Shown here one piece after another: positions 52,573 through 53,627 of a stretch of DNA of 64,000 bases (position 1 is its first letter; each line of letters starts with the position of its first letter). The notes under the pieces are model-generated. The model ran no database searches. It worked only from the letters and a program-made list of their open reading frames with translations, and was not told where the DNA came from. The DNA is from Orbus hercynius (GTDB taxonomy: Bacteria; Pseudomonadota; Gammaproteobacteria; Enterobacterales; Orbaceae): NCBI RefSeq assembly GCF_003634275.1, contig NZ_RBWY01000003.1, forward strand, positions 62,001 to 126,000, read 5' to 3'. The position numbers and the translations under genes are program-made.

Positions 52573-52670
52573 TAAATAAAAAGATTAAATCTCATTTGCA
52601 CCAAAAAATAGCATCTTTTGAATAGACATAAATTGTATTTTGGATAGAGTGTATACCATTATTATCAACG

Positions 52671-53627
52671 ATGACAGGTATCATGAATATTTCCTCAGTA
52701 GCAACACACCAAATTGGCTTAGTTTTTGGTAAGTTTTACCCACTCCATTGCGGTCATATTTATTTGATTGAAAAAGCAGCGAGTCAAGTTGATGAGCTGC
52801 ATATTCTTTTAGGTTGTGAACAAAATCGTGATCTCAAATTATTTCAAGATAGTCATATGCCAAGGCAACCAGGAGTCGAAGATCGATTTTTGTGGTTACA
52901 AAAAACCTTTAAAAATCGTCATAATGTTCATACCCATGTTTTAGATGAAGCCGGCATTGCAAGTTATCCTAATGGTTGGCAAGATTGGAGTGATAGAGTT
53001 AAGTCTATTTTAGATAAACATCACGTTGTTCCTTCGGTTATTTTCACCAGTGAACCACAAGATGTGGAGCACTATAAGCATTACTTCCAAACCGCTGTAA
53101 AACTAATTGATGCCGATCGTGACTTTGTGAATATTAGTGCAACTAAAATCCGACAGCAGCCATATGATAATTGGCATTTTATTGCGCAAAAAGCAAGGCC
53201 CTTTTTTATCAAGCGCATTGCGATTATTGGACGGAGTGAATTTAGTAAAGTTCCTAAGCAATTAGCTAATATTTATAATACTGAATACGTTGGTAACGGT
53301 TATGTTAATTACATCAACTGTAGCTATCAAGACAATGCCAATTTAGTCTTTAACAAATCTGACTACATTAGTATGGCAAAGCTACATGCTGAGCGATTGC
53401 ATGCTGCCTCATTATCTGCCAATCGAGTATTATTTACTTCACTGGATTTTCGAACGTTACATCACTACTATCAAACAGCATTCCAATCTTCCAACACGAT
53501 TTTACAAGAACTCGAAGAAAATTATCCTTTTGATCTCATTATTAATGAAACTGACTTTGATGATTGTGACTCGGCCCTGAGTGTTGTAGAGGAGATACTG
53601 AAAATGGTCGAAAAACAACTACATTAA
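52671..53627 (+). CDS. nadR: NadR-type NMN adenylyltransferase with a degenerate kinase domain
   Basis: The N-terminal NMN adenylyltransferase domain looks intact: FGKFYPLHCGH (residues 19-29) for nucleotide binding, DELHILLG, and ISATKIR (155-161). It would make NAD from NMN. The C-terminal part aligns with the ribosylnicotinamide kinase of NadR but its P-loop, GGESSGKS in E. coli, is GRSEFSKV (187-194), and the usual EYGREFV is GNGYVNY. The kinase is therefore probably dead. The N-terminal helix-turn-helix repressor domain of enteric NadR is missing (318 versus about 410 residues). A start at 52683 (MNISS) has a better ribosome site. Monocistronic by context. Confidence 0.88.
   Translation: MTGIMNISSVATHQIGLVFGKFYPLHCGHIYLIEKAASQVDELHILLGCEQNRDLKLFQDSHMPRQPGVEDRFLWLQKTFKNRHNVHTHVLDEAGIASYPNGWQDWSDRVKSILDKHHVVPSVIFTSEPQDVEHYKHYFQTAVKLIDADRDFVNISATKIRQQPYDNWHFIAQKARPFFIKRIAIIGRSEFSKVPKQLANIYNTEYVGNGYVNYINCSYQDNANLVFNKSDYISMAKLHAERLHAASLSANRVLFTSLDFRTLHHYYQTAFQSSNTILQELEENYPFDLIINETDFDDCDSALSVVEEILKMVEKQLH

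Follow-up and report, generated by a model that had tools for sequence, protein, structure and literature searches.

A second NadR-type protein in Orbaceae with intact NMN adenylyltransferase motifs and a degenerate kinase domain

A NadR-type gene without P-loop or repressor domain

The window, a 64,000-nucleotide stretch of the Orbus hercynius genome, contains an open reading frame at 52671-53627 of the forward strand that encodes a NadR-type protein. An in-frame ATG at 52683 is preceded by AGG and lies where the orthologs of three members of the same genus (L002, L003, and L004) begin. Because these orthologs start there, position 52683 is probably the start codon rather than 52671, and of the 314 to 318 aa possible for the product, 314 aa is therefore the likelier length. 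Residue numbers are counted from 52671. The features of the locus are as follows.

52608..52626, + strand: conserved upstream element ATAGCATCTTTTGAATAGA, 19 bp, 56 bp before the start (exact matching and matching with mismatches)
52683..53627, + strand: coding sequence of the NadR paralog, from the probable start (open reading frame and same-genus start comparison; in-frame alternative start at 52671)
52710..53195, + strand: NMN adenylyltransferase (NMNAT) domain with intact motifs (Pfam CTP_transf_like, 18-162; alignment to 1lw7 and 8x7f; invariant residues)
52728..52757, + strand: GKFYPLHCGH, nucleotide-binding motif (every position except C, 71%, invariant in 41/41 copies)
53133..53153, + strand: ISATKIR, NMNAT active-site motif (first I, S, A, T, and R invariant in 41/41 copies; second I, 95%)
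53208..53624, + strand: pseudokinase domain, formerly ribosylnicotinamide kinase (aligned to the NadR kinase by sequence and model)
53229..53252, + strand: degenerate P-loop GRSEFSKV, two residues deleted (alignment; P-loop string in 0/41 copies)
53430..53450, + strand: degenerate Walker B LFTSLDF, where the full-length NadR of the same genome has FIDTDF (alignment of copies)

An earlier note on this locus had described intact NMNAT motifs, a change of GGESSGKS to GRSEFSKV, a kinase domain still in frame, and the loss of the repressor domain, and alignments and Pfam searches confirmed this anatomy. At E values up to 1, the window copy matched nucleotidyltransferase-type Pfam families and no helix-turn-helix (HTH), kinase, or Nudix family; two further matches, with E values of 0.1 and 0.28, were at chance level. 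In the alignment with NadR, no N-terminal extension was seen, GRSEFSKV occupies the place of GGESSGKST and is two residues shorter, the lid is an 11-column gap, and the C terminus is shorter. The Walker B region contains an aspartate that is invariant in 17 full-length NadR proteins, and serine stands there in 78% of 41 paralogs.

The paralog is widespread in Orbaceae and old

NadR-type proteins were searched in 99 genomes, 44 of Orbaceae and 55 of other members of the same order. An intact P-loop-less ortholog was present in 41/44 Orbaceae genomes, spanning five genera. One further genome (G013) carries a broken copy, which brings the copies located to 42, and the paralog was not found in G042 and G043, which are 59% and 74% complete. 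Both NMNAT motifs used to test membership, GxFxPxHxGH and ISxTxxR, are retained in all 41 intact copies. The string GxxxxGK[ST], in contrast, occurs in 0/41 paralogs versus 20/20 other NadR proteins examined. The earlier note's designation of the product as an NMN adenylyltransferase only thus stands for the type of protein, with kinase motifs gone from 41/41 copies, while the activity itself is predicted from the conserved motifs. The two-residue P-loop deletion and the lid gap are also common to all 41 intact copies; the loss of the P-loop is therefore no sequencing slip that a corrected sequence might restore. The P-loop positions vary among the 41 copies, the old Walker B region is conserved in a new form (FTSxDF), and the pseudokinase of the G004 ortholog gives a weak, sub-cutoff match to AAA_28 (7e-5).

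A scan of named genomes gave a similar division. Among the best 80 loci of 478 relatives, 27 were of the paralog kind (308 to 316 aa, no N-terminal extension, no P-loop), and all 27 belonged to Gilliamella, Frischella, Zophobihabitans, Schmidhempelia, or an "Orbaceae bacterium." The remaining 53 had an N-terminal extension of at least 69 residues and a P-loop; Walker A was accordingly absent from 27/27 loci of the paralog kind and present in 53/53 others. Within these best 80 of 478 relatives, the paralog appears confined to Orbaceae. Its named hosts include Gilliamella and Frischella, which are common bee gut symbionts.

In a tree of 50 rows, which included 16 of the 41 paralogs and 13 full-length NadR proteins of Orbaceae, the paralogs formed a single clade (100/100) on a long branch (2.67), and the full-length Orbaceae proteins formed a separate group (97/98 at the fork, 100/100 in the group table). 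Inside the paralog clade, genera g3, g4, and g5 were monophyletic, and g1 and the deep order lacked resolution. The duplication may be older than Orbaceae, since the tree does not fix the junction of the paralog clade with the full-length clades. Judged by sequence and phylogeny, the gene is an ancient NadR paralog in which the loss of the kinase motifs is old. The window and Gilliamella bombicola share one gene order around the paralog which, judging from the translations, runs ribH, nusB, a SpoU-type methyltransferase gene, the paralog, ubiE, and ubiB. Zophobihabitans keeps the left-side order with one extra gene, and the paralog is not followed by ubiE.

A complete NadR is present elsewhere in the genome

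A second NadR gene lies outside the window, 82 kb away (G000:C3:31538-32773, locus L043). Its 411-aa product has HTH_3, nucleotidyltransferase, and AAA_28 (2.6e-29) domains in Pfam and an intact P-loop, GGESSGKS. PnuC is encoded in the same genome on another contig (G000:C1). Because a complete NadR and PnuC occur together, nicotinamide riboside salvage is still encoded, and the repressor domain is missing from the paralog copy, not from the organism. The earlier expectation that nicotinamide riboside could not be used is contradicted by these two genes, and the reading shifts from a lost salvage route to two NadR proteins with a likely division of labor. The NMNAT domains of the two proteins are 49% identical; the pseudokinase and the kinase are 26% identical.

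The paralog and another NadR occur together in 42/44 genomes, G013 among them, or in 39 without the three genomes whose NadR is distant. This co-occurrence and the fold that the two proteins share in the model (see below) would suit a paralog that acts as a partner subunit in mixed oligomers with full-length NadR and modulates repression or kinase activity. We consider such a role quite unlikely. The kinase-to-pseudokinase identity is only 26% in the O. hercynius genome, and the paralog is kept in G004, G005, and G008, where the only other NadR found is distant and without a Pfam HTH match, and in G038, whose NadR likewise has no Pfam HTH match. The persistence of the paralog in these four genomes argues against its depending on a repressor-type NadR as partner.

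Both domains are predicted to keep the NadR fold

A first AlphaFold2 model, built from 28 paralogs alone, reached a pTM of 0.52 and matched 1lw7 at an rmsd of 12.8 (VIA Z 22.0). A second model was built from 36 sequences, comprising 17 of the 27 named paralogs, the window copy, and 18 full-length NadR proteins, and had a pLDDT of 90.9 and a pTM of 0.84. Foldseek ranked NadR structures first for the second model. 8x7f, titled trifunctional NadR, had a TM score of 0.79 by query length, and 1lw7 had the highest TM score among the matches listed (0.88 when normalized to the query length and 0.81 to the target length; rmsd 3.8). The model thus predicts that both domains, including the kinase-derived one for which the earlier note had proposed a structure prediction, keep the NadR fold; the arrangement of the domains may lean on the 18/36 full-length rows.

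The pseudokinase half is under relaxed but persistent constraint

The ratio of nonsynonymous to synonymous substitution (omega) was estimated from 77 pairs, not independent of one another, whose dS fell in the range 0.08 to 1. The NMNAT half had a median omega of 0.082 and the pseudokinase half one of 0.125, versus 0.035 and 0.007 for the working kinase in the two measurable full-length pairs. Judged against these two values, the pseudokinase is under clearly weaker constraint than a working kinase, yet far from neutral. The earlier note had read the retained dead domain as a sign of a structural role or of recent loss. Recent loss is rejected, the loss being shared by 41/41 intact copies in five genera with low dN/dS; the domain may well have a structural role.

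These values also bear on the view that the gene is a decaying, redundant duplicate without function. The one broken copy among 42 located (G013) would agree with it, whereas the 41 intact copies, the low omega of both halves, and the conserved upstream element make general decay highly improbable. In G013 itself (L042), the NMNAT half has no indel and no stop relative to its relative L017, with 15/5/35 substitutions at the first, second, and third codon positions (522 sites). The pseudokinase half has seven indels, and its substitutions are spread as 42/35/37 (377 sites); in two intact control copies, this half has no indels and substitutions of 0/2/16 and 3/0/23. Since the NMNAT half is clean and the pseudokinase half decayed, it was the NMNAT that selection preserved in this lineage, though it may be weakening somewhat. 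Against three near relatives, the NMNAT half of G013 gives an omega of about 0.12, a little higher than the 0.05 to 0.11 among those relatives. It has also replaced one tryptophan that never varies among the 41 intact copies, so this copy may be losing strength.

The pseudokinase might do more than serve as a scaffold if the old riboside/ATP site had been repurposed for another ligand and controlled the NMNAT domain or a partner. Rather than drifting freely, the former substrate segment, which neighbors the P-loop, has become a new block characteristic of the family, QLANIYNTxYVxNGYINYI, in which 80 to 100% of the 41 copies agree at most of the named positions, and the omega of 0.125 points the same way. 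In addition, a study of Lactococcus lactis NadR reports sigmoidal ATP dependence of the NMN-to-NAD step and an adenine nucleotide "sink" (PMC7221760). Against a ligand site, the kinase half diverges faster (43 to 57% identity to the window copy, versus 62 to 76% for the NMNAT half, in five comparisons), and G013 lost the pseudokinase and kept the NMNAT half. We therefore hold a repurposed ligand site to be a tentative and rather unlikely reading.

The paralog has its own upstream element and mostly lacks NadR boxes

The exact element ATAGCATCNNTTGNNTAGA occurs once per genome, directly upstream of the paralog, in 25/44 family genomes from three genera, and a reversed-pattern control gave 0 matches. 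Within two mismatches, the element precedes 37/41 paralog copies, with no match in shuffled sequences. It is perhaps part of the paralog's own promoter or operator. As judged by exact copies only, it is not a regulon motif: every exact match sits upstream of the paralog. A known riboswitch or leader RNA was also considered and set aside, as an Rfam search of 11 loci returned a single row, SNORD75 (E = 0.37), which we take to be a chance match.

NadR boxes were sought with the consensus TGTTTA-N6-TAAACA, allowing up to two mismatches within 150 bp upstream and using mononucleotide shuffles for the expectation. The full-length set comprised 13 of the 40 closer second family copies, one of which (L057) has no HTH and an uncertain start. 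A box was found upstream of 11/13 full-length Orbaceae nadR genes (0.86 expected), 1/41 paralogs (1.9 expected), and 0/3 distant NadR genes. The paralog thus lies apparently outside the NadR regulon, a placement based on missing boxes, which 2/13 full-length nadR genes share.

Orbaceae lack a detectable NMN deamidase

The NAD gene inventory of the 44 Orbaceae genomes detected nadD in 43, pnuC in 43, and pncB in 42. nadA and the NMN deamidase gene pncC were found in 0/44 genomes each (the Escherichia coli positive control was detected for both), and nadV in 0/44; PncA gave weak matches in 34/44, none above the cutoff. The O. hercynius genome encodes LigA and NadE. NadV and PncB, which the earlier note had suggested as sources of NMN, are rejected: NadV is absent from all 44 family genomes, and the product of PncB is nicotinate mononucleotide, not NMN.

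Direct adenylation appears to be the one NMN-recycling route found in Orbaceae within this inventory of nadA, nadV, pncC, nadD, pnuC, pncB, and PncA, in which nadA is the sole marker of de novo synthesis. It is the supported route because no deamidase was found for the NMN that comes from DNA ligase or the NadR kinase. According to PMC3680494, NMN strongly inhibits NAD-dependent DNA ligase and would be scavenged by NMN deamidase. Among the 55 other genomes of the order (all listed; nine others without a match are unlisted), pncC was missing in 6/9 genomes with a NadR-type match versus 2/46 without one; both pncC-less genomes among the 46 are 0.3 Mb in size. Thorsellia (G069), G061, and G080 have pncC and a NadR-type protein together. 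The absence of pncC fits a trade-off with NadR-type proteins, in a comparison that covers few families and is not corrected for descent.

A proposed role in NMN recycling

On balance, we favor the reading that the paralog works solely as an NMNAT, with its pseudokinase as a scaffold, and that it recycles NMN in a family that lacks PncC. It would be a NadR duplicate reduced to a single function, NMN + ATP -> NAD + PPi. If expressed, it probably acts as a housekeeping recycler of the NMN released by NAD-dependent DNA ligase, would also adenylate the NMN that the other NadR makes from nicotinamide riboside, and would stand in for the PncC deamidase route absent from Orbaceae. Being apparently outside the NadR regulon, it could stay working even when the trifunctional NadR shuts down transcription of nadR. 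The pseudokinase would phosphorylate nothing and would persist as a scaffold that supports the NMNAT domain structurally or allosterically. The paralog could be redundant, because the full-length NadR also carries an intact NMNAT domain.

A switch of the NMNAT domain to another mononucleotide, so that NAD is no longer made, might be read from a few consistent differences from full-length NadR (C to G, D to E, and S to T). The motif residues are kept, however, the domain shares 49% identity with its counterpart in the full-length NadR of O. hercynius, and the best PDB sequence match of the protein is Haemophilus influenzae NadR (1lw7), at an E value of 9.9e-66; we judge such a switch very unlikely. 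A bolder version of the recycling proposal is speculative and, in our estimation, improbable: the NadR duplicate would have replaced the PncC route by combining a dedicated NMNAT with a dead kinase that works as a ligand-sensing regulatory domain, thereby uncoupling the clearance of NMN on behalf of DNA ligase from NAD-responsive repression.

Under the favored reading, an insect gut family would possess a specialized second copy for vitamin B3 recycling that has lost two of three activities and probably retains the conversion of NMN to NAD. The paralog makes a long-maintained metabolic pseudokinase open to experiment, and it leads to a proposal for how bacteria without NMN deamidase might control NMN, which is reported to inhibit their DNA ligase (PMC3680494). 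A Gilliamella study mentions riboside scavenging and PnuC, and nadR has no occurrence in its main text (PMC11325843). The literature listings searched gave no description of an Orbaceae NadR paralog.

Comparison with known NadR and NMNAT systems

The paralog resembles trifunctional NadR (HTH, NMNAT, and ribosylnicotinamide kinase) in its intact NMNAT motifs and in having a kinase-like domain at the same place. It differs in lacking the HTH, the P-loop, and the lid, in its shorter C terminus, in lacking a NadR box as a rule, and in coexisting with a full NadR. H. influenzae NadR likewise has the P-loop GGESSGKS that the paralog lacks. We take PDB entries 6gye, 6gyf, and 6gzo to be those of L. 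lactis NadR, which is 20 to 22% identical to the paralog. Like the paralog, L. lactis NadR has no HTH and joins an NMNAT to a kinase-type domain, but both activities are present in it (PMC7221760). Bifunctional NadR of this type needs a Walker A kinase, which is absent from the paralog.

NadM-type and archaeal NMNATs (1m8g, 2qjo, and 2r5w) convert NMN directly to NAD, as is predicted for the paralog. In 1m8g and 2r5w, essentially the NMNAT half aligns (169 to 179 columns). Entries 2qjo and 2r5w are titled NMNAT/ADP-ribose pyrophosphatases; unlike NadM, the paralog has no Nudix domain, and its C-terminal half aligns to the NadR kinase domain. The proposed recycler role resembles that of NadM in PMC3680494, where Figure 1 draws a NadM-type NMNAT as another recycling step.

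Automated annotation is likely to miss these differences. The paralog scores 264.4 bits against NCBIfam NF005988 (trifunctional NadR), above the cutoff of 201, and 237.4 bits against TIGR01526, below the cutoff of 341.15. Since the NF005988 cutoff is passed though the HTH and the kinase motifs are gone, the paralog is probably misnamed in databases, and the model is a likely annotation trap.

Other NadR-type proteins

Several NadR-type proteins outside the paralog family were recorded during the searches. The distant NadR proteins of G004, G005, and G008 (L047, L048, and L049), the only other NadR found there, are 27 to 28% identical, carry GQESTGKS, and have no Pfam HTH match. The PnuC of these genomes scores higher (195 to 200 bits) than elsewhere (75 to 96 bits); the window genome also has this high-scoring PnuC type yet keeps an HTH-containing NadR. 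The closer NadR of G038 (L057, 379 aa) has a P-loop and NMNAT and no Pfam HTH match, and it may have lost the repressor domain separately. In G062 and G086 (family f20), which are also without pncC, a NadR-type NMNAT lies inside proteins of 764 to 774 aa (L175, 593-2884; L176, 2143-4464) that have no Pfam HTH or kinase and continue after the NMNAT for about 530 residues without a Pfam match. NadR proteins of the Enterobacterales/Gilliamella kind under Listeria booriae and uncultured Lactobacillaceae titles (L149, L115, and L118) are probably contamination. In Xenorhabdus hominickii DSM 17903, identical NadR proteins are encoded by two genes on two contigs (L121 and L123).
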